In this document: positions 8,944 through 47,805 of the stretch, piece by piece
Layout of the letters: the number at the start of each line of letters is the position of its first letter
Numbering within the stretch: position 1 is the first letter of the stretch
Assembly: GCA_016928835.1 (NCBI GenBank)
Contig: JAFGJW010000006.1
Coordinates: 1-64,000, forward strand
DNA: 64,000 nt
Origin: Candidatus Woesearchaeota archaeon
GTDB lineage: Archaea > Nanobdellota > Nanobdellia > Woesearchaeales > GW2011-AR15
Reading direction: 5' to 3'
Notes under the pieces: model-generated
The model's input: the letters and a program-made list of their open reading frames with translations, nothing else
Database searches by the model: none
What the model was told of the DNA's origin: nothing
Position numbers and translations under genes: made by a program

Positions 8944-9750
8944 ATGGATGGTTCAATTGAAACAGTTATGCAAGATGATTCTATTTCCCTGATGAGGGCA
9001 GATAATGGGCCAGCTCTTGATGAACGAATACAAGGATTTCTTGGACAGGAAGTTACATTTTTAGGAGAAAGAATCACTTATGGTAATATTATTGCCAACA
9101 TTATTTCTTTGGTTATCAGGCCTTTGGTGGGTGCTCATGCCTCTGAGAGGTATAAAGATAACCCAGAAGCACTTGCTTTGATACATGCTGGTCTCATAGC
9201 CTCAGATGTTTTTGATGGATGGTTTGCAAGGAAATATGGTAATTCAGCAAGCAAGCTTGGTGAGTGGGCAGATATAATTGGTGACCACTTATATGAGATA
9301 GGGGTATTTGGGATGTATGCTAAACAAGGTAAAATCCCTTCATGGGTTCCGTTTTTCTATGTTTGTAAGGACACAGTAACAGATGTTAGAAGATATATGA
9401 GACAAAAAAGAGAAAAGACAGGTACAATTCTAAGTTCAGGCAGAACTGATTACAGGTGGGAAAGAGCTGGATATGCTTTAGCTAAATTATTGGCAATAGC
9501 AACTGCTGGCTCCAGAGCGCCAAAATGGTTAAAGCGAACAGTGTTATATAGCACAATAGCATGGGGAGCTTATCGAGCTATAAGAAATATCGGCAATATT
9601 GATCCTCCAGCAAGGTTTTATAGTGGCATGCAAGACCTGTATGATCAAGCAAGCCAAATAGCTGAAGGGTTTCTAGAGTACCTCAAATCACTTCCCCAAA
9701 AAAATCATCTGCAGTATATTGAATTAGATATGCATAGAGCCGCTGGTTAG
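8944..9750 (+). CDS. CDP-alcohol phosphatidyltransferase family protein
   Basis: 268 residues. The family signature is complete: D88-x2-D91-G92-x2-A95-R96, then G106-x3-D110-x3-D114, which binds the CDP group and two metals. Several hydrophobic helices surround it. Members transfer a phosphoalcohol from a CDP-lipid or CDP-alcohol in lipid synthesis. The acceptor (inositol phosphate, serine, glycerol phosphate) cannot be told from sequence. It converges on and overlaps the taw1 stop by 4 nt. Confidence 0.85.
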   Translation: MDGSIETVMQDDSISLMRADNGPALDERIQGFLGQEVTFLGERITYGNIIANIISLVIRPLVGAHASERYKDNPEALALIHAGLIASDVFDGWFARKYGNSASKLGEWADIIGDHLYEIGVFGMYAKQGKIPSWVPFFYVCKDTVTDVRRYMRQKREKTGTILSSGRTDYRWERAGYALAKLLAIATAGSRAPKWLKRTVLYSTIAWGAYRAIRNIGNIDPPARFYSGMQDLYDQASQIAEGFLEYLKSLPQKNHLQYIELDMHRAAG

Positions 9751-26813: not shown

Positions 26814-27488
26814 ATGACTAAAAAAGAGCCTTCTTACAAAGTTGTCTCTCTATTGGATGTGAATGAGCTCCTATCTTTTGCCAAGCAGGAAGTCAAGGGG
26901 CTTGAAGATGAGATTAAAGAAGAGCAGAGAGTAGAGGAGGAATTAAAAGAATTTATCAAACATATTGAAAAGCATTCAGGCCATAAATTGAATTACATAG
27001 GCCATGAAAAAAGGTATGGAAAGCATTTAGTTAGATTCTTATTTCAGGATGGCGGCTTCTTAGAGGTTATTGTTGAAAAACCTTTGGCAATGAACGCTCA
27101 CTTTTCTGATGAAGAACAGGCAAAAAAATTTGTAAGTGGTTTGAAAAAGACTCTAGAGAAGACTCTGCCTGATCATCCAGTGAAGGATATGTTTATTGAT
27201 TCTATTCATATTGAAGATGGGTTTAAGGATGATGTGCTTACAGTGGATAAGTGGAGTAAGATTCATGGAATCACAATACAAAAAACACTAGTTGTAACTG
27301 TTGTAGCTGTTTTCATATTTGTCATAATCGAGCTCACTAAGGCTTATTTTGTTGAAACTGCAAGAGACGTATTGCATTTGGAATCTTTTATTATATCCAT
27401 AGTCACTGCTATTATCATTGCTCTGTTTATTGAGCCGATAAGGAACAAGACAGAGCATATTGTGGGTAAGATGATAAAAGGTAAATAA
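26814..27488 (+). CDS. Unknown protein with C-terminal two-helix membrane anchor
   Basis: 224 residues. Residues about 1-60 are charged and coiled-coil-like, then comes a soluble alpha/beta domain, followed by two membrane helices (about 158-178 and 192-208) and a basic end. I do not recognise the family. The start follows a TATA-like TTTAAACATAATAAC and looks leaderless. It is spaced 3 nt from the PaaK-like gene, so all three genes to 29695 are likely one operon. Confidence 0.65.
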   Translation: MTKKEPSYKVVSLLDVNELLSFAKQEVKGLEDEIKEEQRVEEELKEFIKHIEKHSGHKLNYIGHEKRYGKHLVRFLFQDGGFLEVIVEKPLAMNAHFSDEEQAKKFVSGLKKTLEKTLPDHPVKDMFIDSIHIEDGFKDDVLTVDKWSKIHGITIQKTLVVTVVAVFIFVIIELTKAYFVETARDVLHLESFIISIVTAIIIALFIEPIRNKTEHIVGKMIKGK

Positions 27489-27491
27489 ACT

Positions 27492-29015
27492 ATGTCTCTT
27501 TTAGGATATCTTGTTAAATTTATGTCTGTAGAACTGATGGAGAAATATATTAGATATAGAAGTAAGGATCCAAAAAAACTTGAAAAACAGTTGCTTAATG
27601 CGAATCCAGAATTTCTGCAGCTGTTAAGTCAAAAAAAAGCTTTATATATTTTTAATAAGGCTGTGAATGAAATTGAATTATATAAAAAATTTCTTAGAAA
27701 AAACCAGGTTGTAGTTCAAAGTATAAAAACCATTGCTGATTTTAGAAAAAAAATTCCAATTATGGACAAAGAAAATTACATAAAAGAGGCAAAAGACATT
27801 AGAGAGCTGTGCTTTAATAAAGACATTAGCAAAATAAATATTCTTTTTGAGAGCTCTGGCTATACCGGGAAACCAAGTATCTGGCCAAAGACAAAGGAAG
27901 AAGAGGAACAGGAAAAAAAATATGTTACAGTCGGTCTTGATATTATTTACAAAACCTATGACAAAAGAACTCTTTTTATTAATACTTTTGCTCTTGGAAG
28001 CTGGGTTACTGGAGTGGAATTAGCAAGAATAAGTGATGGCCACTGCACGCTTATTAACCCAGGACCAAATGAAGGGGAGGTATATGAGATTATTAAGAAT
28101 TTCAGCAAAGATTTTGACCAATTTATTATAGCCGGCTATCCACCATTTATTAAAAATCTTATCGACAAAGGGGGGAGTATTATTAACTGGAAAGAACACA
28201 CAATTCATTTTTTATTGGGTGCTGAAGGCATGCCTGAAGAATTGAGAGATTATATCTTTGAGCAGGTGGGAGAAAAAGCAATTGTAATGTCAGGTTATGG
28301 CGCTTCAGATATCGGAATTACTGGCATTAATGAAACCAAAGAGACTGTTTTAATTAGGAGACTAGCAAGAGATAATCCGCAATTTAACAAAGAAATTTTT
28401 AACGGTCATCATAGAAGTCTCCCGATGTTATTCCAATATGACCCATTAAGTTATTTTATAGAAGTCAATGAGAAAAATGAATTGGTCTTCACAACTATTA
28501 ATATAAACATAGCAATGCCATTAATCAGGTACAATCTTAAAGACACAGGCGGTGTTATCAGTTATGACAAGATGACAGATGTTCTTAAAAGGCATAAAAT
28601 TGATATTAAGTTTGAGTTCCCTTTTCCCTTTATGTATCTAATAGGGAGAAGCGACGGGGCCATTAATTTTTTTGGTTCATTAGTTTATCCCAATTTTATT
28701 AATGGTGTGATATATAAAAATAAAAAATTGAGATCAAAAACAACGAATAACTTCAAACTTAGTGTTAAATATGACAAAGAACATAAGCCAATTCTTTCAA
28801 TAGATATCCAACTAAAAAAGGGAGTAAAAAAGAGTAAAATGTTAAGCAGGTCTTTTGAAAGGCTAATTGAATCTGAAATGTTTGATAAAATTGAAGACTT
28901 GCTTCCAAAGAAAAAATTATTAAGCAAGATGTATAAACAGAGTATTATTAAGGTTCGATTATATTCATTTGATAAATACCCTTATATTAGCGGAATAAAG
29001 ATAAAATATAAATGA
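27492..29015 (+). CDS. PaaK/phenylacetate-CoA-ligase-like AMP-binding protein
   Basis: 507 residues. N-terminal region resembles the PaaK family (helical segment with LYKKFLRKN), the phosphate loop reads ESSGYTGKPSIWPKT, and the adenylate-binding part LLGAEGMPEELRDYI...MSGYGASDIG is present. Members adenylate a carboxylate and pass it to CoA or another acceptor. Acceptor and acid are unknown. The 4-nt ATGA overlap with the decarboxylase gene suggests a joint role, perhaps in lipid modification (inference). Confidence 0.75.
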   Translation: MSLLGYLVKFMSVELMEKYIRYRSKDPKKLEKQLLNANPEFLQLLSQKKALYIFNKAVNEIELYKKFLRKNQVVVQSIKTIADFRKKIPIMDKENYIKEAKDIRELCFNKDISKINILFESSGYTGKPSIWPKTKEEEEQEKKYVTVGLDIIYKTYDKRTLFINTFALGSWVTGVELARISDGHCTLINPGPNEGEVYEIIKNFSKDFDQFIIAGYPPFIKNLIDKGGSIINWKEHTIHFLLGAEGMPEELRDYIFEQVGEKAIVMSGYGASDIGITGINETKETVLIRRLARDNPQFNKEIFNGHHRSLPMLFQYDPLSYFIEVNEKNELVFTTININIAMPLIRYNLKDTGGVISYDKMTDVLKRHKIDIKFEFPFPFMYLIGRSDGAINFFGSLVYPNFINGVIYKNKKLRSKTTNNFKLSVKYDKEHKPILSIDIQLKKGVKKSKMLSRSFERLIESEMFDKIEDLLPKKKLLSKMYKQSIIKVRLYSFDKYPYISGIKIKYK

Positions 29016-29731: not shown

Positions 29732-31717
29732 ATGGAACCAGATTTGTTTGCAAAAGAAGTCTGTACTGTAAATACAAGTCAGCTTGTATGGTTGGTACGG
29801 GCTAATCATGGCCAGGCGGGGATAAGCCAGTTATTAGAAAGGCTTGGTAGTATATCTGAGGACTATTTAAGAGCTACAGAAAATTGGATTTCCTTAGAGG
29901 CATTATTTAGATTATTTGATAATCTACATACGATCTACAGTAATCCAAGCCCCCAATTATTCTTTAATCTAGGAATGGATGTGCAGGCTACACAAGGGGG
30001 AGCATTGGTCACAATTGTCAAATGGGTTGGTACGCCTGAAGCAGTCATTAGGAGCAGCCCAAGTTATAATCGTAGATTTAATGAAGATCAAGAGATAGAA
30101 GTGGTTGAACTTGGAAGAGGACATGCTTTAATTGCCAATTTTTTTCGTCCAGATTATTTTGAGAGAGAAAGGTTAGACCAATGTTATTGGACCAGAGGGA
30201 TACTTGCTGGTGCACCCAGCATATTCGGACAAAAACCAGCAAAAGTCAGAGAGATTGCATGTTCATTTAGACTTGAAGAGATACTGAAGCGAGATTATGC
30301 TTATTTAGATTTAAGCGTTGAAGAGAAAGACGGCCGGATTTATATTAATAGTGAGGAATATGCACATAGAGTTGCTCTAGCATTTCGAGAGTGCAACCCC
30401 CTGTTCTTAAGTGCAAGAGATACTCCTCAAGGAATAGAGAAGGGAACAAGACAGGTCCTTTCAGGCGGTTATCAGGAAATTGGCGAATCAGATGAATTTG
30501 TTGGATATGTGGTAACAAAAACATTGAATATAGATGGAGAGGCAATAATTAAAGAAGGTGAGATTTACAATGCCCCCTATTGCCTCTATGAATTAACTTG
30601 GGAACCGGTCTCTATATGGAGAAGGCTATATCAGAAAACAATAGGAAGAATCCCTCTGTTTTTTGGACGGATAAGAGAATTAGAGGATTTATTAGACAAA
30701 TACGAAGGACTGGTTGATACGTTGGAGAGAAAAGTCCAGGAACGAACAGCAGAACTGGAAACAGAGAAGCTTAGAACAGAAGCTGCTCTTCACAATCTAG
30801 AACAAGCAACACAGAGACTTATACAGTTAGAAACTGAGATTACACTTAGGGGATATGCTGCGGCCCACAGACATGAATGGAATACACATCTAATGATACT
30901 TCGTGCATTCGCTGAAATTCTAAGTGATATTAGCGATTATTTTTCAAGATTATATTTAAGCGGTGCAGATATGTGTGGATTCATATCAAGGGAGCAGCTT
31001 GAGCAGCTTGCCAATGCACGTGAAGCAGCCATGAGATATGGGCAGGCAGCAGCAGAATATGCTACAATGACAGGTACTCCAATCCATAAAAGACTGGCAC
31101 AGTGTGTCAAAAGCATTATAGGCGAGTTAGATACTCTGTCCCAATTATCAGAAGAATTAAAAACCGATTCTGACCCCTCTAGGGTTCATTTAATACCTGA
31201 AAGGATAGAGAAGACTATTGAATTAGCATTATACACTTATACCGAAGCAATGAAACAGCAAGGTGTTCCTGAAATCACCACTGAGATAGATTACCCCCCT
31301 AACCTCCCAATGGTTCTCTACAACCGGCCAAAAATTTATCAGGCTTTGTTGCTTCACTTAAGAAACGCATATCAGTCTATTCTAAAAAGAATGCAAGAAA
31401 GCGGATACAGTGATGACAAGCCAAGAATCTCAGTGCATATATGCTGTGATATAGGCAGTCAATCCGAAGAGCAGAGAGTTTATATAACAATTAGCGATAA
31501 CGGAACAGGCATAGCTGATGAAGATCTATCTAAAATATTCGAACGGTTTTACTCAACAACAGACATGGGAACTGGGATAGGGTTGGCATTGGCAAAAGAG
31601 ATTATTGAAGTAACGCACAAAGGATTAATATATGCAAGAAGCAGATTAGGAAAGGGTTCTGAATTTATCTGGGAACTTCCGGTATATCACAACCCAGTAT
31701 ATCAAGAGGTGGAATAG
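29732..31717 (+). CDS. Sensor histidine kinase with unassigned N-terminal sensor domain
   Basis: 661 residues, soluble. Residues 1-300 form a sensor region I cannot place firmly; the run RPDYFERERLDQCYWTRGIL followed by GAPSIFG recalls V4R/HNOB-like ligand domains. A coiled coil (about 320-375) leads to the H-box AAHRHEWNTHLMILRAFAEI (H379/H381), an N-box (LLLHLRNAYQSI), a G1 box (DNGTGI) and a G2 box (GTGIGLAL). Lysine-poor. The last 53 nt overlap antisense with the dehydrogenase-receiver gene, its probable phosphorelay partner. TATA TTTAAATATAAC at 29702-29713. Confidence 0.85.
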   Translation: MEPDLFAKEVCTVNTSQLVWLVRANHGQAGISQLLERLGSISEDYLRATENWISLEALFRLFDNLHTIYSNPSPQLFFNLGMDVQATQGGALVTIVKWVGTPEAVIRSSPSYNRRFNEDQEIEVVELGRGHALIANFFRPDYFERERLDQCYWTRGILAGAPSIFGQKPAKVREIACSFRLEEILKRDYAYLDLSVEEKDGRIYINSEEYAHRVALAFRECNPLFLSARDTPQGIEKGTRQVLSGGYQEIGESDEFVGYVVTKTLNIDGEAIIKEGEIYNAPYCLYELTWEPVSIWRRLYQKTIGRIPLFFGRIRELEDLLDKYEGLVDTLERKVQERTAELETEKLRTEAALHNLEQATQRLIQLETEITLRGYAAAHRHEWNTHLMILRAFAEILSDISDYFSRLYLSGADMCGFISREQLEQLANAREAAMRYGQAAAEYATMTGTPIHKRLAQCVKSIIGELDTLSQLSEELKTDSDPSRVHLIPERIEKTIELALYTYTEAMKQQGVPEITTEIDYPPNLPMVLYNRPKIYQALLLHLRNAYQSILKRMQESGYSDDKPRISVHICCDIGSQSEEQRVYITISDNGTGIADEDLSKIFERFYSTTDMGTGIGLALAKEIIEVTHKGLIYARSRLGKGSEFIWELPVYHNPVYQEVE

Positions 31718-33413
31718 GAGTTATGTCACCTGCTGTCTCTATCTCTTGAAATACTTGAAGCAGTTGTCCAGAAGAAAGGCTATCATAAGTAGGTTCAATT
31801 GGTACTATTCCCTCATCTTTTCTTAAGAGTATTGATCTAACAGCACGGTATAAAGCATCTAGCACATCTTTTCTGCTTTTTTCAACGAATGCATAAAAGT
31901 GACCAACTGCCTCCTCAACTGCTTCTTTAGTTGCCTCTCCACTCAGGATAATTGCTTCAGGAGTAAACCTTGTTCGAGCGCCATTGATTTCTCTCATGAA
32001 AAAGTCAATGCCTGTTTCATCAGAGGGATTGGGGCTCAATTTATAGTCAACAATAATCACATCATATATTGCCCCAGGTGTCTGTAGCAACCTTCTTGCC
32101 TTATCAACATTAGGGGCGGAATCCACTTGAAAAGAATTAAAGAGTGACAAGCTTTCATCTCTTTGGAGACGCTCAAGTAATATCTGTTCAATTGGTTTAC
32201 AGGGCCCATAAACATCCTCTAACCACAGTATTCTCCTTGTCCTTTTATTTTTAGCATAAGCAAGAACAGTTGAACCAAGCCTGCGTAAAATTCCAACATT
32301 TCTTTCAAACAATCCCTGCTCCCTCTCACTTAATAAAGGGGTACCTGGTTTCAATCTTCCACCTTCCCATTCTGTTGACCAGCCATACACCAAGTTTGCT
32401 TCTAAATTGAATGATCCAACTACTAGCTCCCTACCCTGGTTCTGGTCAGGAAATAAAAGGAAGTGCAGCAGAGTAAGCACTTCAGGTACAACTTGTTCTG
32501 TTGTTCTTCCCTGGCCTTTCATTATATGTGTTCCTTCCTCAGCAATAATTAAATCCAGTGAATCAAGTATATCTTCAGTTATTTGCATTCCAGCACGAAT
32601 TTCTGGAAGTCGTGGTACCTGAGCTCTTTGGTTGTATTGAATGATTCTCGGATTGTAGGAGGCAGCTGATTGTGAGAGGGTTCTGCCAATAATTGGTTCT
32701 CCATTCAATGATGCGCCGCTCCAATGGGTAAACATCGCAGAACCATGCATGCCTAATACATGTGCTTCTAAAGCTGAGTAATTCTCAAGTGTTCTTGGTA
32801 AACCCAATAAATCTAAGATAATGTATGTTGCTCTTGTTGTATCCATAATATGCCCAACAGAATAGAACTTTCGTGGGTCTGGTCCTAGGACTTCAGGATT
32901 GTTGCTATACAAGGATTTTTGAATATTAAAGGAAGCCCAAGTCATTACATCAGAAGGGTTTGTAAGATATAATTGAAGCCCTTGATAGCCTATACTACTG
33001 AGTCCTGCAGCAACATTATGAAGTAAGAAACTATCTACTTGAGCACTGGCAGCTCTTGCTTGCTCGAAATTACCACTTCCCAAAAGATCAGTCTGGGCAG
33101 TATAATCTCCTTGGACACACACAACAACTGCATCTGTGCCATTTATTCCTATTCCATTTTCCAGTGAATTGTCGATTTCATCATAGTCACCTACAACTCC
33201 TATTCGCCTCTCGCCATCGAACCTTTCCACATAATCAAGCGCACCTTCAACGCTTTGACGGAATGACTCTGCTACGCTTCTGGTTCGGTTTAGAAGAACT
33301 ACTTTGTAACCTTGGAGAAGCATTCCTTGTGAAATAGCTTTACCATTGACCCCTGTACCAATTATACCAATTGTGTACCCGTTTTCTGGTATGTAAGCCT
33401 GAGCAAGTGTCAT
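31665..33413 (-). CDS. Lactate/malate-dehydrogenase-like protein fused to a response-regulator receiver domain
   Basis: 582 residues from the ATG at 33413, which follows a TATA box at the right distance; a GTG at 33443 adds 10 residues. Residues about 13-370 match the LDH/MDH family: Rossmann GIIGTGVNG, DAVVVCVQG, TNPSD (N152), IMDTTR (D191, R194) and the catalytic-histidine loop LGMHGSAMFTHWSGA (H223). Residues about 400-525 form a REC domain: acidic ILWLED, phospho-acceptor D456 in IIVDYKL, ILSGEAT, and conserved K512 in FVEKS. I know of no standard protein with this pairing. Confidence 0.85.
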   Translation of the reverse strand: MTLAQAYIPENGYTIGIIGTGVNGKAISQGMLLQGYKVVLLNRTRSVAESFRQSVEGALDYVERFDGERRIGVVGDYDEIDNSLENGIGINGTDAVVVCVQGDYTAQTDLLGSGNFEQARAASAQVDSFLLHNVAAGLSSIGYQGLQLYLTNPSDVMTWASFNIQKSLYSNNPEVLGPDPRKFYSVGHIMDTTRATYIILDLLGLPRTLENYSALEAHVLGMHGSAMFTHWSGASLNGEPIIGRTLSQSAASYNPRIIQYNQRAQVPRLPEIRAGMQITEDILDSLDLIIAEEGTHIMKGQGRTTEQVVPEVLTLLHFLLFPDQNQGRELVVGSFNLEANLVYGWSTEWEGGRLKPGTPLLSEREQGLFERNVGILRRLGSTVLAYAKNKRTRRILWLEDVYGPCKPIEQILLERLQRDESLSLFNSFQVDSAPNVDKARRLLQTPGAIYDVIIVDYKLSPNPSDETGIDFFMREINGARTRFTPEAIILSGEATKEAVEEAVGHFYAFVEKSRKDVLDALYRAVRSILLRKDEGIVPIEPTYDSLSSGQLLQVFQEIETAGDITPIPPLDILGCDIPEVPR

Positions 33414-33460
33414 TTTCCTAAGAACCCTCTTTAGTTTTATCACTCATAAGGAATCATCTA

Positions 33461-33471
33461 ATATATTTAAA
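33461..33471 (-). promoter_or_regulatory. TATA box of the dehydrogenase-receiver gene
   Basis: On the minus strand TTTAAATATAT precedes the ATG at 33413 by about 48 nt and the upstream GTG by 18 nt. A start of transcription near 33440 would exclude the GTG, which supports the ATG start and an independent promoter for this gene. Confidence 0.5.
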
Positions 33472-33507
33472 CATTTTTGTTGGGTACATATAATAAACCA
33501 TTTTCAT

Positions 33508-35049
33508 TTATTGGCGATAGCATGCAGCAGGAACACCAAAAAGATTGGCAAGCATATTTTGCGAACAATGCAGCTCTCTCCAGTCATACTGTGTGATTCT
33601 TTCCGTGCCTGCAACATCTCCAGGTTCAACAATAGATGCTCTATGCGAATTTTTTTCAAGGAATGGACATAGTATTTCTCTTTCTGCTTGACTAAGACCA
33701 ACAGCAACTGCATAGATATGTTTATCAGAAGATGATGCTGCTAATTGTTGTGCAAGATTTTCCCTTAATGACTGTGGTCCTGAATAGGGACAGACCAATA
33801 GCATTCTTGCAGGCACCTCTGTTGCCAGAATATCTACAGCATTAATTGGTACTCCTAAAGCCAGAAGTGTGTTAATATGGTTAGGCTGCTTTTCAGGGTC
33901 AATTTTTCCGTATCGCCCAATATTAGGGTCCAAAAGAGAAATTGCCTGCCAGATCTCTGCAACCTCTTCTACAAGTTCTGCAGGATATAATCTCTGCTGA
34001 GGGCGAAAACGCCTGCGTGCTTCAAGTAAATGTGTGCTTACTTGACCATATGCAGAATCATGCGCATAAATATTCTGCAAAGACAGACAGGAATTTCCAG
34101 CATGAGCATATGCAAATCTCAATGCAATTTCAGCTGCTTTTTCAATTTGCTCTGGTGTTGCATCAGACCCGATTATTAGAACGGGAAAATGGTCTTTGTA
34201 GAAAAAATGTCCTCTAGTGCCCTGTAATACTTCTGATAAGGTGTCAAGAGTTGTTTTTGAACCAAAATATATTCCCCCACAAGTTGTTTCTTGAACAGTG
34301 CCATCAAAAAGATTTAGAAATTTTGGCAGCAATGGCGCGTCCCATCTTCTCTGGGAGCTCCAGGTCAGCCAGTTAAATACCTGTTCAGAAGATTGAGGCA
34401 CACAATATTGCATCAAATCATGCGGAAGGTTATCTGAACTTGAAGATCTAAAAACAATTGATGCTTGATGGCCATTTTTGCAGGCTTGCGCCAGAATCCC
34501 ATAATAGAACATAATTGTGGTCTCATAAATTCCAAGCTGGCCAGAGGTCCATACACAAAGTCTTTCAGGAATTTCATGGGATTCAAAAAAAGATTTCAAA
34601 TCCTCAGTCCCCAAGATCTGGCGCAAGGCTTTTTCTCTACTATCTGGATCACGAAGAGGTTCAACAAAATCTCGACCTAATTGTTCAACTTCTAGTTTAA
34701 GGTCCTCAGGATTCATTATTCCATTTAATAGACAATAGTCCCTAACTAAAGATGATTCGTAACCAAGGTTAATTTCTTGAACCAGCGCTTCATGCATTCC
34801 CTGAATATTCTCCACAGCCTGCTCCAGAGTAAATGGATTTGTTTCGTGTTGGGCAGCTCTGCTTTTCATTTCCTTCTCTAGCTGCTGAACGACTGCTGAA
34901 GAATAATGAGTTGAAGGTGTAGCAATCACTGGTTCACCACTCACAAAGCTTAGTATGCCATTATAGCAGCCATATTGTAAACCCAGCCCAGAAGAAGGTT
35001 CAATCTCTCTTCCTTGGATTATTGCATTAAGAGCTCTCACATTGAACAA
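33508..35049 (-). CDS. Aldehyde-dehydrogenase-superfamily protein, LuxC-like acyl reductase
   Basis: 513 residues. The C-terminal two thirds follow the ALDH fold: FYYGILAQACKNGHQASIVFRSS (cofactor region), GGIYFGS, FPVLIIGSDATPEQI and the nucleophile-cysteine motif HAGNSCLSLQNIY. The N-terminal 170 residues are divergent. Paired with a LuxE/PaaK-like gene by a 13-nt overlap, it is best read as a LuxC-type reductase turning an activated acyl group into an aldehyde. A plain aldehyde dehydrogenase is the alternative. Lysine-poor (about 2.7%). Confidence 0.7.
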   Translation of the reverse strand: MFNVRALNAIIQGREIEPSSGLGLQYGCYNGILSFVSGEPVIATPSTHYSSAVVQQLEKEMKSRAAQHETNPFTLEQAVENIQGMHEALVQEINLGYESSLVRDYCLLNGIMNPEDLKLEVEQLGRDFVEPLRDPDSREKALRQILGTEDLKSFFESHEIPERLCVWTSGQLGIYETTIMFYYGILAQACKNGHQASIVFRSSSSDNLPHDLMQYCVPQSSEQVFNWLTWSSQRRWDAPLLPKFLNLFDGTVQETTCGGIYFGSKTTLDTLSEVLQGTRGHFFYKDHFPVLIIGSDATPEQIEKAAEIALRFAYAHAGNSCLSLQNIYAHDSAYGQVSTHLLEARRRFRPQQRLYPAELVEEVAEIWQAISLLDPNIGRYGKIDPEKQPNHINTLLALGVPINAVDILATEVPARMLLVCPYSGPQSLRENLAQQLAASSSDKHIYAVAVGLSQAEREILCPFLEKNSHRASIVEPGDVAGTERITQYDWRELHCSQNMLANLFGVPAACYRQ

Positions 35050-36428
35050 CCCCCTCTTGAAGCTTTTTGACTTAACAGTAGGTTACCTTGGTCATACCCA
35101 CGACTCCTCGCTATCTCTCTATCCACCAACCAAGCTCTTCCATTTGGGTCTAATTTTATAACATAAAGCGCATTGCCTGGTCTAGACCTTACTGCAATTT
35201 TTAATGAAGGAAGAATCAGATATTCTCTTGATTCACGATCATAGTAAGAAGCAGCAACATTAGTCTCATCAACCTCTCCCACATATCCTGGTGCAGCAGG
35301 CCTCCCATCTGGGCCGCTAACCATTGTAAACGTGGGGCCGAGCGGAAATAACCGTAAGGTGCTCATAGCTTCAAGCATATCCTCAACACTGCCTCCATGA
35401 AGTCTGCTGTTCCATTCTGCACAACCTGTAGGGAGGCATCTTGTATTGCCTGAAGATGTGTAGATTAGCTGGATTCCCCGCTCATGCATTCTCCGGAGCT
35501 GAGCATCAGAAATATTGGCACTGGTCATGAGTGCATATCTTAATGTATCAACATTCGCATCTAGCATACCCTCAAAGCCTAGTCCTTTAGCTTTGGCTAT
35601 TGCAGTAGGTGGTGCTGCAGCAAGCTCTGGTTGATATTGCTCCAAGATACCATTCCAGTGTTCTGGAGAACAGCCATCTGGGGCGTCAATAACAGTGATC
35701 CCGTAACCCAGGTAAAGAACATGTCTCCACAGCCAGCCGCCAATGTGTCTTTTGCTAAATGAACACGCAGCATTAGCTACCTTCCCTAATTCAGGAGCAT
35801 GTTTCAAAAGACTCATATATAATGCCTGAACAGATGCCCTCAAATCAGCATTTGGAAATAGAACCAAATAATCTTCCCCGGGACGCTTATTAGTTGTTCC
35901 GCCAGTATATAGTTCTAAAGAAAGGATCATATTGGGATCCAAATCAGTTATTCTGCATTCCAGTTTTCGAGATTCTTCTGAGTAAAGCTCAGCAAGAGGT
36001 GCCGGCAAATCATTTAGCCATGCTTTTCTTCCAAGAGCTCTTGAGTCTGTGGGTGGAATTTTATAAAAATCATCCCATGATTCAATTGGACTCAAAATAG
36101 GGTCAATATCATTATCCTTGCAATGCAGATAAAATGAAGGACACACATGATATGCAAAAGCAACTGCATTTCTGACTAGTTTCAACTGGAGCCTGTCAAT
36201 CGCACTCCAGCCAAGCTGTGGTCCTTGCCCAGGAATTGGATCAAGTCTAGGGTCAGCAAGTGTCCTAAAAGCAAAATTGTCTCTTTGAGAATGAACAGCA
36301 AATTTTTTCCAATATCCAGCAAAATTCCCAAGAGAGATTCTCTGGCCTCCAATCTGTTCTGATTCGTATGGTAAATCAACTCTATCAGTACCAAGTTTTT
36401 CAGCTAACCCACCAAATATTCTCGCCAT
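35037..36428 (-). CDS. LuxE/PaaK-like acyl-adenylating enzyme
   Basis: 463 residues. Family features: the helical entry HVCPSFYLHCKDNDIDPI, DFYKIPPTDSRAL, the phosphate loop ELYTGGTTNKRPGEDYLV (about residue 172) and LRYALMTSANIS followed by YTSSGNTRCLPTG. LuxE and PaaK proteins adenylate a carboxylic acid and pass the acyl group to a thiol. The gene has a strong AGGAGGT Shine-Dalgarno at 36434-36440 and overlaps the LuxC-like start by 13 nt, implying coupled synthesis. Lysine-poor. Confidence 0.72.
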   Translation of the reverse strand: MARIFGGLAEKLGTDRVDLPYESEQIGGQRISLGNFAGYWKKFAVHSQRDNFAFRTLADPRLDPIPGQGPQLGWSAIDRLQLKLVRNAVAFAYHVCPSFYLHCKDNDIDPILSPIESWDDFYKIPPTDSRALGRKAWLNDLPAPLAELYSEESRKLECRITDLDPNMILSLELYTGGTTNKRPGEDYLVLFPNADLRASVQALYMSLLKHAPELGKVANAACSFSKRHIGGWLWRHVLYLGYGITVIDAPDGCSPEHWNGILEQYQPELAAAPPTAIAKAKGLGFEGMLDANVDTLRYALMTSANISDAQLRRMHERGIQLIYTSSGNTRCLPTGCAEWNSRLHGGSVEDMLEAMSTLRLFPLGPTFTMVSGPDGRPAAPGYVGEVDETNVAASYYDRESREYLILPSLKIAVRSRPGNALYVIKLDPNGRAWLVDREIARSRGYDQGNLLLSQKASRGGCSM

Positions 36429-36433
36429 AGTCT

Positions 36434-36440
36434 ACCTCCT
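36434..36440 (-). promoter_or_regulatory. Strong Shine-Dalgarno of the LuxE-like gene
   Basis: AGGAGGT on the minus strand, 5 nt before the ATG at 36428. It fixes this start and contrasts with the leaderless genes elsewhere in the window. Confidence 0.7.
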
Positions 36441-36495
36441 GGTAAATAGCTAAAACAATGTTAAAAAAAGTTATATAAAAATCTATCCTAAAAAA

Positions 36496-37809
36496 CTACT
36501 CTGTGAGCAGTTTGTTATAGATAATTAGAGATGAGACTGACTGGTTACAGACTTGTGAAGATTTGCTCATTTTTGCACCGATCTCCCCAAATGTATGGAA
36601 GCCGAACAAAGGAACCCCTTTATATTTCCTCCTGGCAATATCAATCTCTGCAGTGACATCTTTTCCTAATAAGGCCTTTCTTCCGCAGCAAGAGAAGACC
36701 AAGCCAAGGGCAATCTCCTTGTGGGAGTGTATATCATCAGCCTCTTTCAGTGCATAATAGACTGCTTCTTTTGTCTTCTTTGGATCATAGTTAACTACAA
36801 CTGAAGCAGTATTCTCCTGGACTTTTGTCAATGTATACCATGTTTTTCTATCAGGATTAGGCGCACCTGATTTTATGTATACATTTCCAAAAGTATCCAG
36901 CACACCCAGCGGATGCGCTAAGATATATTTGAAAGGATTTTTTGTAAGCTCATCCACACTTACTTTAAGAATTCTCGCGTATTCTTCAACAGCTGGTTTG
37001 CCATTAATTTCTTGAATTATATGGCCTGTCTTATCAACTTTTGTAAGTAAAGCAACATTGTTGGCAACACAATAGCCGTGTGTAAAGCTGTGTGCAAAAT
37101 ATAGGTCAGACACAACAAAGACAATTATCGCAGCATCATAATAAAGCTTGCCATTGGCAAATTGGAAGTTGTTGGTAATTTTTTCTTTGGTGTACTTATC
37201 CCAATCTGTACTTGATGAACCTCCAATGATAGGGATATTTGGACCAGTTATCTTAAAAACACCCTCAAGGAATTCTGCCTCCATGCCCGGCAACGGATTT
37301 CCCTGCTTGTCAAATTTAACCCCACAGATAAGGGTCAGGATAAAATAGGGCGGTATCCTTACTATTTCATGGAAGGATTTTGTTTGCGACCTTCTGAACT
37401 GTATATAGGGATCCACATAATGGTCAACATGAACATTTTTCATTGCTTCTTGTATGGCTTTTTCACCTGAACTTGCTGGATTCTTGTGATACTTGTCAAC
37501 CACCCCAACACCAAAATGCAAATATTCAGATGAGATAGTCAACACAGATATGGTCCCCTGTTCAAAACCATGTGTACTTGTCAGCTGGGTGTCAGTTGAG
37601 CAGCCAATCCACGTATTGCCCAAGATTTCATTGCCTGCTTTAAGAATCTCCTTTTCATCATAATTTGAATCTGCATACAGTATAGAAAAAGTTGCTCCTC
37701 TTAATCCATCCAACGAATCTTTAGCAGCCTTAAGTGCTGTTTGATAAGTGTCCTTGCCTTTGGCCACACCAATACTTACTTTTATTTTTGAAGAATTTTT
37801 TTTCCCCAT
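36496..37809 (-). CDS. FIST-domain sensory protein
   Basis: 437 residues from the ATG at 37809, which has GAGGTG 6 nt upstream; a GTG at 37818 lies inside that Shine-Dalgarno. FIST-N features: SIGVAKGKDTYQTALKAAK, FSILYADSNYDEKEIL, WIGCSTDTQLTSTHG, PIIGGSSSTDWD. FIST-C features: KPAVEEYARIL, VLDTFGNVYIKSG, GLVFSCCGRKALLG and PLFGFHTFGEIG. FIST domains are thought to bind small ligands such as amino acids and often sit beside histidine kinases. Lysine-rich like the host proteins. The LuxE-like gene follows after 67 nt. Confidence 0.85.
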   Translation of the reverse strand: MGKKNSSKIKVSIGVAKGKDTYQTALKAAKDSLDGLRGATFSILYADSNYDEKEILKAGNEILGNTWIGCSTDTQLTSTHGFEQGTISVLTISSEYLHFGVGVVDKYHKNPASSGEKAIQEAMKNVHVDHYVDPYIQFRRSQTKSFHEIVRIPPYFILTLICGVKFDKQGNPLPGMEAEFLEGVFKITGPNIPIIGGSSSTDWDKYTKEKITNNFQFANGKLYYDAAIIVFVVSDLYFAHSFTHGYCVANNVALLTKVDKTGHIIQEINGKPAVEEYARILKVSVDELTKNPFKYILAHPLGVLDTFGNVYIKSGAPNPDRKTWYTLTKVQENTASVVVNYDPKKTKEAVYYALKEADDIHSHKEIALGLVFSCCGRKALLGKDVTAEIDIARRKYKGVPLFGFHTFGEIGAKMSKSSQVCNQSVSSLIIYNKLLTE

Positions 37810-37972
37810 ATTTCCCACCTCTTAGCAATTCAAAATAAAAATTATCTTGATAATATAATGGCAATATAGATATATAAATGTATTTATAGACTTGCATTTA
37901 TTACCTTTAAAAAATAGTAACATTTATATTTACAGCAAATAATATTGGTTATGTATTATTTGGGGGATAAGT

Positions 37973-39196
37973 ATGCGTAGGGTATCAAATACTATTCTAA
38001 GACAAGAAGTTGATGCAAGTGCAGGAATTAGAGCCCTATTTGAGCAAGCTATAAGATTCAAATCAGAGGGCAAAAATCCCATTGATTTATCAATTGGGAG
38101 CCCAAGTATTCCTCCTCCAACAGGATATTATGAAGCATTAATTCAGATAGCTGCAACACTTAGAGACGAACAAGGCAACAACCCCCATGGCTATATGCCA
38201 AATGCTGGTTACCTGCATGTAAGAGGAATGGTAGCTAACTATTTATCCAAGCATTTTAATGTTCAATTTGATGCCCGGGGGATTGTAATGACTGCCGGTG
38301 CAACTAATGGGCTTGACATAGTTATCGGAAACCTGATTGGAACTAGAAATCCGGGCGCAGAGATTATTCTAATAGCCCCCTATTTCCCAGCATATATTGG
38401 AATTGTCAAGGCAAATTTTGGCAAACCTGTTATTGTATACTCCGGAGAGGATTTTTCTCTTCCCTTTGAGGGAATTGAGAGTGCAATAACACCAAACACT
38501 GCTGCTATTATTATTAATTCCCCAAATAATCCAAGTGCGAGAGTTTATACAGCAGGGGAATTGAGAACCTTATCAGACATCCTAGCCAGAAAAAGTGAAG
38601 AGATTAGCAGAGCAATTGTATGCATAGAAGACGCCCCCTATAGCAGGATTCTCTTTCCTGGGCATGAATATAGTTCTATGCTTCGATTTTATCCTAATAC
38701 TGCCCATATTGACTCCTTATCAAAACAGCTTGGAATTGCTGGAGAGAGGATTGGTTTTGCTGCCCTGCCATGTCAATTTGGTGCTGATGCAGATGATAGG
38801 CAAATATTCATAAATGGCCTCACAAACAGAATGATAGAAACTGTGGTGAATGCACCAGCACTTCAGCAGAGAATCATTGGTGAACTGGGACTAGAGTCTT
38901 GTGTTCCAGTTGAAGAATATGTTGCAAGAGTTCAAAGACTGACAGAGTCTTTGAGGAGGGCGGGAATGCATTATGCAGAGCCTCAGGGTGGCTTTTTTGT
39001 TTTTGCTGAGATACCAGAGCAATTTTGTGATGAAGCAGAATTTAGAGCATGGGCCTGGTCAGGAAATGAACCTTTGCTTTATGTGCCGGGAGTCGCATTT
39101 GGTTCAGAATACAGTGGCTGGATTAGACTTTCTGGAGCAGCATCAACTGAAACAATAAATTGTGCAGGAGAGAGACTGCTGGAACTAAATCAATAA
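37973..39196 (+). CDS. PLP-dependent class I/II aminotransferase
   Basis: 407 residues with the fold-type-I motifs in order: TAGATNGLDI, APYFPAYIGI, NSPNNPSARVY, EDAPYSRI, the PLP-lysine motif DSLSKQLGIAGERIGF (K about residue 251) and WIRLSGA. Only 7 of 407 residues are lysine, one of them catalytic. GGGGGAT precedes the ATG. The divergent FIST operon starts 163 nt away. Substrate unknown; family members move amino groups between amino acids and keto acids. The 3' end overlaps rnhB antisense by 7 nt. Confidence 0.88.
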   Translation: MRRVSNTILRQEVDASAGIRALFEQAIRFKSEGKNPIDLSIGSPSIPPPTGYYEALIQIAATLRDEQGNNPHGYMPNAGYLHVRGMVANYLSKHFNVQFDARGIVMTAGATNGLDIVIGNLIGTRNPGAEIILIAPYFPAYIGIVKANFGKPVIVYSGEDFSLPFEGIESAITPNTAAIIINSPNNPSARVYTAGELRTLSDILARKSEEISRAIVCIEDAPYSRILFPGHEYSSMLRFYPNTAHIDSLSKQLGIAGERIGFAALPCQFGADADDRQIFINGLTNRMIETVVNAPALQQRIIGELGLESCVPVEEYVARVQRLTESLRRAGMHYAEPQGGFFVFAEIPEQFCDEAEFRAWAWSGNEPLLYVPGVAFGSEYSGWIRLSGAASTETINCAGERLLELNQ

Positions 39197-39846
39197 TCTC
39201 CCAATTTCTTCTGCTCTTTCTCATCTTTAATATTCTTCCAGCTCTGCCAGCTTTTTCTTATTATTTTTTCATATTCTGGGTTATTCCAGTGCTCTTCTAA
39301 AAACCTTTGTGTGATTTCATCAGACATATATCCTGAGCCGAATTCAATATTATGCTCTTTTTTTAGATTATCGATGATATTGTCTCTTGTTACTTTTGCT
39401 AAAATGCTGGCAGCTGCAACAACAGGATAATTTAAGTCTGCTTTATGTTCCACTATTAATTCTGTTTCATAGGTTATGTTGTTTAATAAAAAATCTTTGT
39501 ATCTCTTAGGATTCCTATCAGGGCAGTCAATAAATACTCTGTTTGGGTTTAAGTGATTAATAATCTCAGTCATTTTTTTCCCTTCAAGTATATTTAGGTT
39601 AGTGCAATTAGTATATCTGTTATCTATTTCTTCTGCATTTACAATTGATAATTCATAATCTTCACACAACTCTTTTATTTTTTCAAATAAATTTGCTCTC
39701 TGTTCTTTTGTTAAAAGTTTTGAATCTTTGACGCCAAGTTTTGTTAGTTGTTCAATATTTTCCTCTTTAACAAGAACTCCGCACATCACTAGAGGGCCTA
39801 GCACAGGACCGCGTCCTGCCTCATCAATGCCACAGATTAAAGTCAT
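39190..39846 (-). CDS. rnhB: Ribonuclease HII
   Basis: 218 residues. The start CGIDEAGRGPVLGPLVMCG holds the catalytic DE pair; the second acidic residue is in VFIDCPDR and the third in KADLNYPVVAAASILAKVTRD. The enzyme removes RNA primers and misincorporated ribonucleotides. It contains 22 lysines in 218 residues, a normal level for this genome and in sharp contrast to the flanking genes. Confidence 0.95.
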   Translation of the reverse strand: MTLICGIDEAGRGPVLGPLVMCGVLVKEENIEQLTKLGVKDSKLLTKEQRANLFEKIKELCEDYELSIVNAEEIDNRYTNCTNLNILEGKKMTEIINHLNPNRVFIDCPDRNPKRYKDFLLNNITYETELIVEHKADLNYPVVAAASILAKVTRDNIIDNLKKEHNIEFGSGYMSDEITQRFLEEHWNNPEYEKIIRKSWQSWKNIKDEKEQKKLGDY

Positions 39847-39909
39847 ATATTATAGAATATGTAAAAACAATTTAAACGTTTTGATGCAAGAAAACAAGGT
39901 CAAAGTAAC

Positions 39910-41073
39910 CTAGACTACTGCAAAAGATGCATGACCCTGTTCTACATGCAATCGAATTCTATCACCTACATTAAGACCAGAGGTATTTCTAGGCTCTATG
40001 AAAACCACATAAGGAACTTCTGATAATGCAGACCGGAGTCCATGTGTATAAAGATGTCCTGGATTTCCCAGAACAAACAACCCTTGGGCATTGGGCATAT
40101 ATGTGGCAATATGTGTTGGTGTCCTTGATAAATAGATAAAACTGCCTTCTGTTATCCCTCTATCTAATGTTTGTTGCATTGTCTTTTCAAATGACCACAT
40201 TGCACTATAATTATATTCACCACCAAAGGTTAAAACGACACCTTCTGGTGGTGTTTTTCCGAAGCAAAGATTACTCACTGTGGTAATCGCTCCTGGATCA
40301 GTTGATTCTTGGCCTGTTCCAGTATAATTCTTTGGCCTCACATATCTTACTTGATGTACTAGTATTGGATCAAGCTGGAATTCTATTTCATAACTAATAT
40401 GATGAGCAAACAAATCTTGTGCCATGATTTTTGAATAAATATCCAGAACCTGGCATAACTCATGTCCATGGTCAGATAATTCCTGGGATGAACACTCTGG
40501 TCTTACTCCCCCCAAGGAAATTATCTCAATTTCTTCACCTCTTTGTGTAATCTGATATGCGCTCATATTGCCATGTTCCCTGTTTCTGGTAAAAATAAGA
40601 TATGTATCCTGAACATTTGGGTGTTTAAGAAGTACACCAGTGATATTTGGATTAGAATATTCCTGGATTGTAATACCCATTTTCCTAACTACTTCATCAA
40701 AATCCAATCCTCTTAACATGCAGTAATGCCTAAGTTGTTGTCTCATCATTATTTCTTCTCTCGCAAGTCCTAGATAGCTCCCTTCTGGTTGTGTCTGAAG
40801 TCGCATCCTCCTTACTAAAGCATCATAGTCTGTTTCCAATGATGTTAATCCTGGAACAAGAGTAATAGTCATGCCATGACCTGCTTTAAATCCAAAAGGA
40901 AGCTCGGTCCTTAAAATAATACTTGAAGAATTTTCAGCAAGCCTCTGCCTAGCTTCATCTGGTGTTAGTCTGGCAGCTACAGGGATTGAACCATCTGTAC
41001 TATGTATCCATTCTAGAAGAGGCCATTTTTCACCTCCTCTTTCAAGACATATTATCTCTAATTTACTGACCAT
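39910..41073 (-). CDS. Divergent PEP-synthase/PPDK-like protein
   Basis: 387 residues. The segment YEIEFQLDPILVHQVRYVRPK resembles the end of the PEP-synthase ATP-binding domain (..DG.LYILQARP), and the C-terminus GHLYTHGLRSALSEVPYVVF...GLNVGDRIRLHVEQG resembles the swivelling phosphohistidine domain, with H344 in the place of the catalytic histidine. No C-terminal PEP/pyruvate barrel is present. It may be a stand-alone phosphotransfer protein or a remnant. Lysine-poor like the neighbouring cluster. TATA CTTTATATATAAG lies upstream. Confidence 0.5.
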   Translation of the reverse strand: MVSKLEIICLERGGEKWPLLEWIHSTDGSIPVAARLTPDEARQRLAENSSSIILRTELPFGFKAGHGMTITLVPGLTSLETDYDALVRRMRLQTQPEGSYLGLAREEIMMRQQLRHYCMLRGLDFDEVVRKMGITIQEYSNPNITGVLLKHPNVQDTYLIFTRNREHGNMSAYQITQRGEEIEIISLGGVRPECSSQELSDHGHELCQVLDIYSKIMAQDLFAHHISYEIEFQLDPILVHQVRYVRPKNYTGTGQESTDPGAITTVSNLCFGKTPPEGVVLTFGGEYNYSAMWSFEKTMQQTLDRGITEGSFIYLSRTPTHIATYMPNAQGLFVLGNPGHLYTHGLRSALSEVPYVVFIEPRNTSGLNVGDRIRLHVEQGHASFAVV

Positions 41074-45810: not shown

Positions 45811-47805
45811 TTAGCTCGCAGTATAAAATGCATAAGGACTACCTTTGACTCCTCTTTGTCCGCCATATCGTGTTTTCAACCTGTCTGCGGTGTGAGCCCC
45901 CTTACGGACAGCATTAGGCGATATACGCGACACAGGTACTTGATGATCCCATGCAACAAGTTCAACTAATTCAGTTGAAGAATATTCACCACCACCACCT
46001 AGAATCTCTCTCACTGTTGATGCTATCGACCTTCGCTCAGATGGCCCAGCATTTGTGTGTGGTTGAACGAATCCTATAAGGGATGTTGGAGGATAAATAA
46101 GTTCTCCTGAAAATTCATCATTTTCTTGATGTAGACCTGGAAAAATAAAGGCTCTGCCATAAGGCATTCCAGCTAATTTTCTTCTATATACTTCCTGCTT
46201 GTCTGTCCTAATATATTTTCTTTTCAATTCCTCTAATCTTTGTAAGTCTCCTTCCGCTCTAATATCCCCTAATATCCCAAGCAATTCCTGAACTGCAACT
46301 CTTATTCTCTCTAAATTAATATCATATCTCTCATCTCCAAAATCAATAATCGCCTCCCGGTCCAAAAAGTAGTGGAACATTAGATTTCTTGAACCATTGT
46401 GATCTATTGGGTCTGTTTTAAGCGCAACTAGCATAGAAATTAACATATCATAATATCCAGCAATCTCTTCTTGTTCTGTTATTATTTCTTGAGCAACCAG
46501 AAATGGCAATGACCACATACTGAATACTTCTGCTCTCGCTTCTTCTAGAATAGAATACTGTTCACCAAAATGCTGCTTAGGATTATTGTCTTTCACTACA
46601 CCGGTCCTGTGACCTAGCTCATGTGCTGCAGTCATTATAATACCTGATCGAGATAACAACTCCCTATAGGGTGATATACGTTCCTGAGGCAGAAACGCAT
46701 CAATAACATAACTAATAAGACCTGCATCTTCAATAGCTTCCCGAGTATTTACAAGTACAATATTAACTGAACCGTATTGGTCTACAATTGCCTCATCATC
46801 AGGTAAAGATTCCGCGCTGACTGTTCCAGGGAATAGGTTATAGAACCCTGCCCAGCGAAGCACATCTACAAACTGCAGGTTAGGTAGATTAGGTAGATTA
46901 GTTGGATCTATTTCTATTTTTTGCTTCCATGGAGCTAATTGTTCCATTTCCGGAAGTTGTTTAGCTAATGTATCAGCCAAGGATTGGAGTCTTTCATTTC
47001 GAACATAAACAATAGCCTGAGCAGCACCCCTCACACCAAAGCGTTTATCTAAGTAAAGCTCAACTCCCGTACCAAGAATGAACCCGATTTTACCAACATT
47101 ATCTTGAATCCAAGCCCTCCAACTTTCTTTTCTTGCAGGTTCCAGTCCTGTTTCTAACTCCACAATTTTTGCTCTTATATACCTAGCTAAACCAGTATCA
47201 GATGTAAATCGTTCTGCTCTTTCTAATGCAGATATAACTGGACCCAATTCATTACCAAATCTTTTCTCGTTTAATACAACCTCTAGTGTACCTCTCGGGC
47301 CTCTTATGACTGTGGAATTTTCAATATTTGATGCTGGCCCTAATGCTTCATATTCTTGGTGGGTCATATCCCAGGGATATAGACCTCTTCCCTGGGGGGG
47401 CATTGCTTCTCCCCACAAAATATCTGCAAAGCTATGTAGAGAATGTCCTTCAGGAATTTGATCCTGTGTAAAAGGGAATCTAATTCTCTCATTGAACATA
47501 TTCCAAGGTGAACTAGCTGCAAGAAAAACAGTCATATAATTACCAAATTTTGTGAGATTTCCTGAATCTTCAAGTGTTGATCCAAAGTCAACTAAAGCAT
47601 CACGTAACTCACAACCCCTATCATATTGCTGCTGAGCAAATATTGGTGCAATTCCATCAACTGCTTCAGACAGCGCAGAAAGAACAACTAATTCTTCTTG
47701 CGTTAAACCAGAAACACCAAAAGGAATCTGTATCTCAAGTGCAATGTTTGACTCTAAGCCACTAGCTCTTTCCAAATCATATGGAATCTCATTAATTTTT
47801 GGCAT
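45811..47805 (-). CDS. Metallopeptidase resembling the M49 (dipeptidyl-peptidase III) family
   Basis: 664 residues. Zinc motif AAHELGHRTG (H395, E396, H399) and, about 25 residues on, LEEARAEVFSMW, which matches the EECRAE motif that supplies the third ligand in M49 enzymes. DPP III has HELLGH; here the shorter HELGH form is present. No signal peptide, so probably cytoplasmic peptide trimming. Lysine-poor, like the 29.7-41.1 kb cluster. Strong GGGGGGTG Shine-Dalgarno before the ATG at 47805. Confidence 0.68.
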   Translation of the reverse strand: MPKINEIPYDLERASGLESNIALEIQIPFGVSGLTQEELVVLSALSEAVDGIAPIFAQQQYDRGCELRDALVDFGSTLEDSGNLTKFGNYMTVFLAASSPWNMFNERIRFPFTQDQIPEGHSLHSFADILWGEAMPPQGRGLYPWDMTHQEYEALGPASNIENSTVIRGPRGTLEVVLNEKRFGNELGPVISALERAERFTSDTGLARYIRAKIVELETGLEPARKESWRAWIQDNVGKIGFILGTGVELYLDKRFGVRGAAQAIVYVRNERLQSLADTLAKQLPEMEQLAPWKQKIEIDPTNLPNLPNLQFVDVLRWAGFYNLFPGTVSAESLPDDEAIVDQYGSVNIVLVNTREAIEDAGLISYVIDAFLPQERISPYRELLSRSGIIMTAAHELGHRTGVVKDNNPKQHFGEQYSILEEARAEVFSMWSLPFLVAQEIITEQEEIAGYYDMLISMLVALKTDPIDHNGSRNLMFHYFLDREAIIDFGDERYDINLERIRVAVQELLGILGDIRAEGDLQRLEELKRKYIRTDKQEVYRRKLAGMPYGRAFIFPGLHQENDEFSGELIYPPTSLIGFVQPHTNAGPSERRSIASTVREILGGGGEYSSTELVELVAWDHQVPVSRISPNAVRKGAHTADRLKTRYGGQRGVKGSPYAFYTAS

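Follow-up and report, generated by a model that had tools for sequence, protein, structure and literature searches.

A 64,000-nucleotide stretch from a Candidatus Woesearchaeota archaeon (assembly GCA_016928835.1, contig JAFGJW010000006.1, positions 1 to 64,000; hereafter the window) carries a gene cluster that, on balance, we read as a kinase-controlled acid-to-aldehyde pathway having its own sensors. On the minus strand one finds, in this order, the genes for a FIST ligand-sensor protein, a LuxE-like acyl-adenylating enzyme, a LuxC-like acyl reductase, and a dehydrogenase fused to a receiver domain, on which a histidine kinase gene (29732-31717) converges with an overlap of 53 bp (Table 1). 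An earlier annotation of the same DNA (the original prediction) had described the region as a new system for making and sensing a small carbonyl or amino compound, as a signalling or storage molecule; a product of the latter kind is conceivable. The genes, their order, the conserved cysteine and receiver residues, and the recurrence of the set can be read from the sequences; the identity of the substrate and the exit of the product from the cell are guesses.

Gene families were assigned with Pfam, NCBIfam, PDB, BLASTP between the proteins of the window and those of its relatives, and profile models. G codes denote genomes and L codes loci of the comparison set, G000 being the window's own genome. 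All the open reading frames (ORFs) named in the original prediction are present where it placed them. Its identification of a FIST protein is borne out, FIST N and FIST C both exceeding their cut-offs (PF08495, 88.6 bits, 6.5e-25; PF10442, 57.1 bits, 2.7e-15), as is that of the histidine kinase, in which HATPase_c is recognised. Its LuxE, LuxC, and receiver labels fare less simply: taken alone, the window proteins give sub-threshold matches or none, but the labels are secured through relatives, with which they align by BLASTP and share gene order and catalytic residues. The LuxC-like and LuxE-like genes overlap by 13 bp, provided that the TTG start of the former is correct.

Plain homology searches hardly reveal this set. 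The LuxC-like protein of the window finds only its own genome among 371 genomes of the phylum (and likewise among 60 relatives), because these enzymes diverge fast, and it has no match in plasmids or viral contigs. The LuxE-like protein has a single, chance-level match in plasmids (Streptomyces, E 0.7), the dehydrogenase-receiver protein has no full-length relative beyond its own genome in 236 genomes (two weak matches to the NAD domain), and a motif scan of genome contigs with LuxE and dehydrogenase motifs gives no relative in 17 stretches. The gene set could thus be read as an orphan, a view dropped once a search led by FIST exposed the neighbourhoods of relatives. The FIST protein has matches in 8 of the 60 genomes, its own included, and the DNA around three of them shows the same neighbourhood as the window. 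G013 has the kinase, FIST, LuxE-type, LuxC-type, lactate dehydrogenase (LDH)-like-receiver, small-protein, and V4R genes; G006 and G015 both have V4R, FIST, LuxE-type, LuxC-type, and small-protein genes, with a KaiC-like gene upstream in G015. The small protein, about 150 residues long, has a counterpart in the window that the original prediction overlooked (26814-27488), some 9 kb from FIST, with the genes at 27492 and 29012 intervening before the kinase. A contig scan with this protein gives eight loci out of 53 stretches, four of which are not independent (L050 is G015, L054 is G006, L052 is G142, and L056 is G008).

The gene set co-localises beyond chance. FIST is present in 20 and the small protein in 15 of the 371 genomes, and the two occur together in 11, when 0.8 are expected (hypergeometric 5e-13, a value that ignores relatedness). 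When the four genomes used to seed the models are removed, the small protein is found in 11 and FIST in 16 of 367 genomes, seven of them shared, with 0.5 expected (2e-8, again ignoring relatedness). In 10 of the 11 genomes having both, they lie on one contig at most about 10 kb apart. A LuxE-type gene, a LuxC-type gene, or both stand beside FIST in 12 of the 20 FIST genomes (G000, G006, G013, G015, G074, G128, G134, G147, G162, G268, G305, and G372), and the full pair is present in eight of these (G000, G006, G013, G015, G074, G147, G162, and G268), the pair of the window being counted by pairwise match, since with the models its LuxE scores only 6e-4 and its LuxC has no match. Incomplete pairs include G128, which breaks off within LuxE, and G305, with a piece of LuxE fused to FIST. 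The small protein is found in 10 of the 12 clusters, the other two (G128 and G268) stopping at a contig edge, and a V4R gene in nine. The neighbourhood is shared by further families within the order and, beyond it, by genomes of the same class (G147 and G372). Among the remaining FIST genomes, six have FIST close to a kinase and lack the enzymes (G001, G023, G099, G113, G193, and G361); two, G190 and G244, fall plainly into neither group, the latter having FIST with a 771-aa aldehyde dehydrogenase (ALDH) match on the opposite strand. None of the FIST, LuxE-type, LuxC-type, V4R, small-protein, kinase, or dehydrogenase models matches in 25 control stretches (476,040 bases), 13 from the window's genome and 12 from G004. 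The KaiC model has three matches there, and the link with KaiC is weaker because of them.

The acid-to-aldehyde chemistry put forward in the original prediction gains support because the LuxE-type proteins carry a cysteine near the C-terminus. This single cysteine is invariant in 10 of 10 aligned proteins (two rows being 83% alike) and is followed by 2-7 residues in nine of them and by 18 in G162; it is Cys461 of 463 in the window protein and position 371 of 375 in the LuxE-type profile. The profile (A8, window protein included) matches the LuxE chain 7xc6_E, presumably that of P. phosphoreum, at 9.8e-11, with positions 33-372 aligned to residues 29-365 of 373. The invariant cysteine is thereby in register with residue 364 of the chain, as derived from the end coordinates and supposing no gap in the final two columns. 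In P. phosphoreum LuxE, Cys364 is described as carrying the acyl group, which next passes to a cysteine of LuxC (PMC8301110). Outside the FIST clusters, none of 22 PaaK-like proteins (two of them weak matches) has a cysteine within its last 20 residues, and a 23rd row, from G305, has one there and belongs to a FIST cluster. The eight best PaaK-like matches (E 6e-86 or better) all lie in FIST clusters, the next being at 2e-39; the LuxE-type model was built from those rows, so only the score gap informs. Profile matches to PaaK ligases and to 7xc6_E identify an acyl-adenylating (ANL/PaaK-like) domain, and the window protein resembles that of G013 (BLASTP E 3e-6). The Pfam LuxE cut-off (PF04443) is not reached, the window protein having no match and the best relative 17.8 of 24.9 bits; by its sequence, the protein probably works like LuxE rather than being a Pfam LuxE member. 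A predicted structure of the window protein was discarded (mean predicted local distance difference test, pLDDT, 37). In the window's genome (G000:C14:7762-12609), PaaK-like matches occur at three successive places.

The reductase is tied to its relatives in a similar way. The window protein aligns with the ALDH of G013 at 21% identity over 446 columns, and relatives pass the Pfam LuxC cut-off of 21 bits (G162 at 123.8, G015 at 46.3, and G013 at 22.8). In a 12-row alignment of LuxC-type proteins, the sole invariant column is the cysteine at the presumed catalytic position, called catalytic by reading the ALDH/LuxC motif.

Downstream of LuxC, four clusters (window, G013, L049, and G134) encode a receiver domain joined to an enzyme that differs among them: it is LDH-like in the window and G013 (E 2e-5 between the two fusion proteins), ketopantoate reductase-like in L049 (ApbA_C, 4.8e-15), and KASIII in G134 (8e-16). 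We infer that this swapping of enzymes beside the LuxC core, in G134 without a LuxE-type gene, is the most telling sign of a product that varies with lineage. Pfam detects no receiver in the window protein and gives 26.3-28.1 of 30.2 bits in the other three fusions (30.7 for G134 in the genome search); the acidic pair, the phospho-Asp, the Ser/Thr, and the Lys of receivers are kept in all four. The kinase gene converges on the fusion gene also in L049 and G134, with a 1-bp gap and a 6-bp overlap, respectively, and in G013 it lies at the opposite end of the cluster, ahead of FIST. Pfam HisKA has no match in the window kinase; the presumed phospho-acceptor histidine is aligned in the kinases of all four clusters. 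Fusions of receivers with enzymes, other ones, have been described in archaea (PMC5847659).

Two further proteins could take part in sensing. The V4R genes of relatives match Pfam at E 0.1 or better in 11 of 17 cases (3.9e-14 at best; 38.8 bits in L049), and their profile matches the solved archaeal protein MJ1460, which we take to be a V4R protein, at 1.8e-5. A separate V4R gene was not found in the window, where the N-terminal region of the kinase has a V4R match (PF02830) missed by the original prediction, at 21.4 of 31 bits and hence below the cut-off; profile comparison of this stretch is also weak (probability 3%, E 0.015). Hydrophobic ligands have been proposed for V4R domains (PMC2253512), and an acyl aldehyde would fit this. 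No cysteine is invariant among 17 aligned V4R proteins. For the small protein, Pfam gives no match in G015 and, in the window, a sub-threshold match to DUF6803 within the membrane extension. The predicted structure of the latter (pLDDT 79) is nearest to S-adenosylmethionine-decarboxylase-like domains, with Z 7.8 at best over 96 residues, a root-mean-square deviation of 3.3, and a Foldseek E of 2.1e-3, Z below 8 being compatible with a merely common arrangement. In L052, L055, and L114, V4R and small-protein genes adjoin, with neither FIST nor enzymes in the stretch read, and two of these loci have KaiC near; the two proteins are perhaps a core relay.

Taken together, the pathway might operate as follows. 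By homology, the LuxE-type enzyme would adenylate a carboxylic acid and load the acyl moiety on the cysteine near its own C-terminus; its tail would then pass the acyl group to the catalytic cysteine of the LuxC-type enzyme, where reduction by NAD(P)H would yield the aldehyde. The third enzyme, LDH/malate dehydrogenase (MDH)-like in the window and another one elsewhere, would convert the aldehyde or a partner molecule. The neighbouring kinase, if it transfers phosphate as its homologs do, would phosphorylate the receiver and so set the activity of the enzyme. As a guess, the ligand of FIST and V4R may be the product or one of its precursors, and their signal may reach the kinase by way of the small protein and perhaps the KaiC-like ATPase.

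Several observations weigh against this pathway. The window LuxE-like protein reaches 23.0 of the 29.9 bits needed for AMP-binding, and among the relatives tested only G015 passes (57.3), with G006 at 27.9, G013 at 17.7, and G147 without match. The LuxE-type profile scores PaaK coenzyme A (CoA) ligases at 2.9e-42, far above LuxE at 9.8e-11, and because of this a reading as CoA ligase is not dismissed by score; PaaK-like matches at E 1e-6 occur in 50 of the 371 genomes. At E 0.01, Pfam finds nothing in the window LuxC-like protein, which thus misses the LuxC cut-off (PF05893), and the assignment of both window enzymes depends on about 21% identity. Among the 60 matches listed of 270 between the reductase profile and PDB, all are ALDH-type enzymes and none is LuxC. 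Receiver fusions are found in just four clusters, G134 and G372 carry an ALDH without a LuxE-type gene, and V4R and small-protein genes occur also without the enzymes (L052, L053, L055, and G173, on short contigs in three). Finally, the control stretches come from just two genomes.

The main rival, unlikely in our estimate if serious, is regulated catabolism or detoxification of an imported alcohol, aldehyde, or acid, as in the ped cluster of Pseudomonas: FIST and V4R would sense the substrate, the kinase would tune the dehydrogenase, and no signal would be made. NosP and its kinase are encoded within that cluster, the enzymes of which oxidise alcohols and aldehydes (PMC12997753). Genes judged by eye to encode phosphotransacetylase and acetate kinase come after the G015 cluster, the reaction of an LDH-like enzyme is reversible, and the reductases of G015 and G013 score better as general ALDH than as LuxC, which counts at the same time against the acid-to-aldehyde pathway. 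However, a LuxE-type enzyme that consumes ATP and has an acceptor cysteine suits reduction better than oxidation, and ketopantoate reductase-like or KASIII third enzymes would be odd for breakdown.

NosP is a FIST-type nitric oxide sensor protein, and the FIST protein of the window matches the NCBIfam NosP model at 76.4 bits. A response to nitric oxide or redox state like that of NosP-NahK, in which the enzymes would be the output, is also favoured by the six genomes that have kinases near FIST and no enzymes. Yet the cut-off of that model, 450 bits, is far from reached, and in a midpoint-rooted tree of FIST, cluster-type and FIST-kinase proteins fall on opposite sides with moderate support (81/66); this response is quite improbable. 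Three rows of the tree are of neither kind, two grouping with the clusters and one with the kinases, and the window protein groups with those of G013 and L049 (100/99). FIST genes near histidine kinases without enzymes are seen in L046, L047, L048, L115, L116, L117, and L118; the FIST-kinase arrangement is a separate type within the same phylum. The least credible alternative, very improbable, is a protein-acylation switch in which V4R or the small protein would be acylated by the LuxE-type enzyme and freed again by the LuxC-type one, with release of an aldehyde: LuxE is mechanistically an acyl-protein synthetase (PMC8301110) and V4R is linked to the TRAPP subunit Bet3 (PMC2253512), but no V4R cysteine is invariant and the third enzyme is left without a place.

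The cluster has no recognised description in the literature searched, which was limited to open-licence PMC papers, and a PADLOC scan of 10 proteins for defence systems gives no match at E 1e-4. The closest known chemistry is that of bioluminescence, where LuxC-LuxE is the fatty acid reductase making fatty aldehyde for bacterial light emission. As there, the LuxE-type and LuxC-type genes adjoin, the acceptor cysteine is in register with Cys364 of LuxE, and the reductase has its cysteine; in contrast, the archaeal enzymes are far diverged and stand among FIST and V4R genes, some clusters adding a kinase and receiver-fused enzymes. Luciferase genes are not among the cluster ORFs read, no search having been aimed at them. 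The NosP-NahK and ped arrangement likewise places a FIST gene close to those of a histidine kinase and aldehyde enzymes, but the ped enzymes oxidise alcohols and aldehydes, and the available portion of the ped description (PMC12997753) includes neither a LuxE-type enzyme nor an enzyme-receiver fusion. The fusion of a metabolic enzyme with a receiver recalls archaeal response regulators with enzymatic output domains (PMC5847659). The synthesis enzyme beside a sensor kinase resembles CqsA-CqsS, the system of alpha-hydroxyketone quorum sensing reported in genomes of the candidate phyla radiation, whereas the chemistry here would begin from LuxE-LuxC; the main text of that report does not mention LuxE, LuxC, or FIST (PMC7567580).

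The cluster thus provides a defined gene set with a candidate reaction (acid + ATP + NADPH to aldehyde), in which the swapped enzyme slot may mark different products. Uncultured DPANN archaea live near other cells, yet no signal that they make themselves has, to our knowledge, been characterised. A bolder extension of the acid-to-aldehyde pathway, tentative and as a joint claim rather unlikely, is archaeal chemical communication: the aldehyde from LuxE/LuxC would be turned by a swappable receiver-fused enzyme into a lineage-specific hydrophobic signal, which FIST, V4R, and the kinase would sense, controlling the last enzyme by phosphorylation. It would be a new class of system, its loop closed at the level of the enzyme. 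If so, the LuxE-LuxC logic would move beyond bioluminescence into archaeal regulation, and metabolic enzymes would be switched directly by a kinase.

Table 1. Genes of the cluster and its surroundings in the window.
Feature	Coordinates	Strand	Remarks
Small "MNAHF" protein with C-terminal membrane extension	26814-27488	+	41% identity over 144 aa to a gene of the G013 cluster
PaaK/GH3-like protein, second in the window, Lys-rich	27492-29015	+	Without near-C-terminal Cys; adjoins the small-protein gene
Histidine kinase, V4R-like stretch in N-terminal region	29732-31717	+	HATPase_c, 66.4 bits
LDH/MDH-like dehydrogenase with C-terminal receiver domain	31665-33443	-	NCBIfam L-LDH, 6e-7; PDB LDH, 1.7e-5
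LuxC-type acyl reductase (ALDH superfamily)	33508-35049	-	BLASTP to G013 ALDH, E 7e-8
LuxE-type acyl-adenylating enzyme, TGGTT loop, near-C-terminal Cys	35037-36428	-	AMP-binding sub-threshold; G013 match, E 3e-6
FIST ligand-sensor protein, heading the leftward run	36496-37818	-	PF08495, PF10442
Pyridoxal phosphate (PLP) aminotransferase, divergent from FIST	37973-39196	+	PF00155, 4.7e-32; PRK06836-like
Gene between the aminotransferase and the 39910 gene	39190-39846		See ribonuclease HII reading in the text
Gene labelled phosphoenolpyruvate (PEP)-synthase-like in the original prediction	39910-41073		No Pfam, NCBIfam, or PDB match

Lack of co-occurrence in other genomes, named in the original prediction as its refutation, is not what the genomes show for the core. 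Among the genes that the original prediction grouped, FIST, LuxE-type, and LuxC-type recur together, and in G013 so do the dehydrogenase-receiver and the kinase, but no counterpart of the aminotransferase or of the 39910 gene is seen among the ORFs read around the clusters of relatives (by eye, no dedicated search being made). The membership of these two genes in the system is not supported. The aminotransferase itself was correctly named (PF00155 at 112 bits; best NCBIfam model PRK06836, 295.3 vs 376 bits), and the "amino compound" is without support because no aminotransferase is seen near the clusters of relatives. The label of PEP synthase finds no support for 39910-41073, where neither Pfam nor NCBIfam gives a match at E 0.01, nor PDB at E 1. 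The gene between the two, presumably ribonuclease HII as judged by eye, had been overlooked.

Eight genes of the window (8944-9750, four genes in 29732-36428, 37973-39196, 39910-41073, and 45811-47805) are Arg-rich and Lys-poor, with R/(R+K) of 0.59-0.79, the other 43 genes listed being at or below 0.54. Values of at least 0.55 are found in 28 of 211 ORFs of at least 150 aa in a sample of the window's genome that includes the window, and in 10 of 190 ORFs of G004, most of which, judged by eye, are short or probably non-coding. The codon use of the eight genes is broadly that of the host (Arg AGA 0.55 vs 0.54; some codons differ). A recent transfer is not supported by this, and the data leave room for an old one. 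Arg-rich genes at L015 10335-12227 and L006 11988-14345 include an adenylosuccinate-synthetase-like protein extended at both termini and a 785-aa protein resembling malic enzyme. The last of the Arg-rich genes of the window (45811-47805, minus strand) matches peptidase M49 at 45 bits, in an archaeon.

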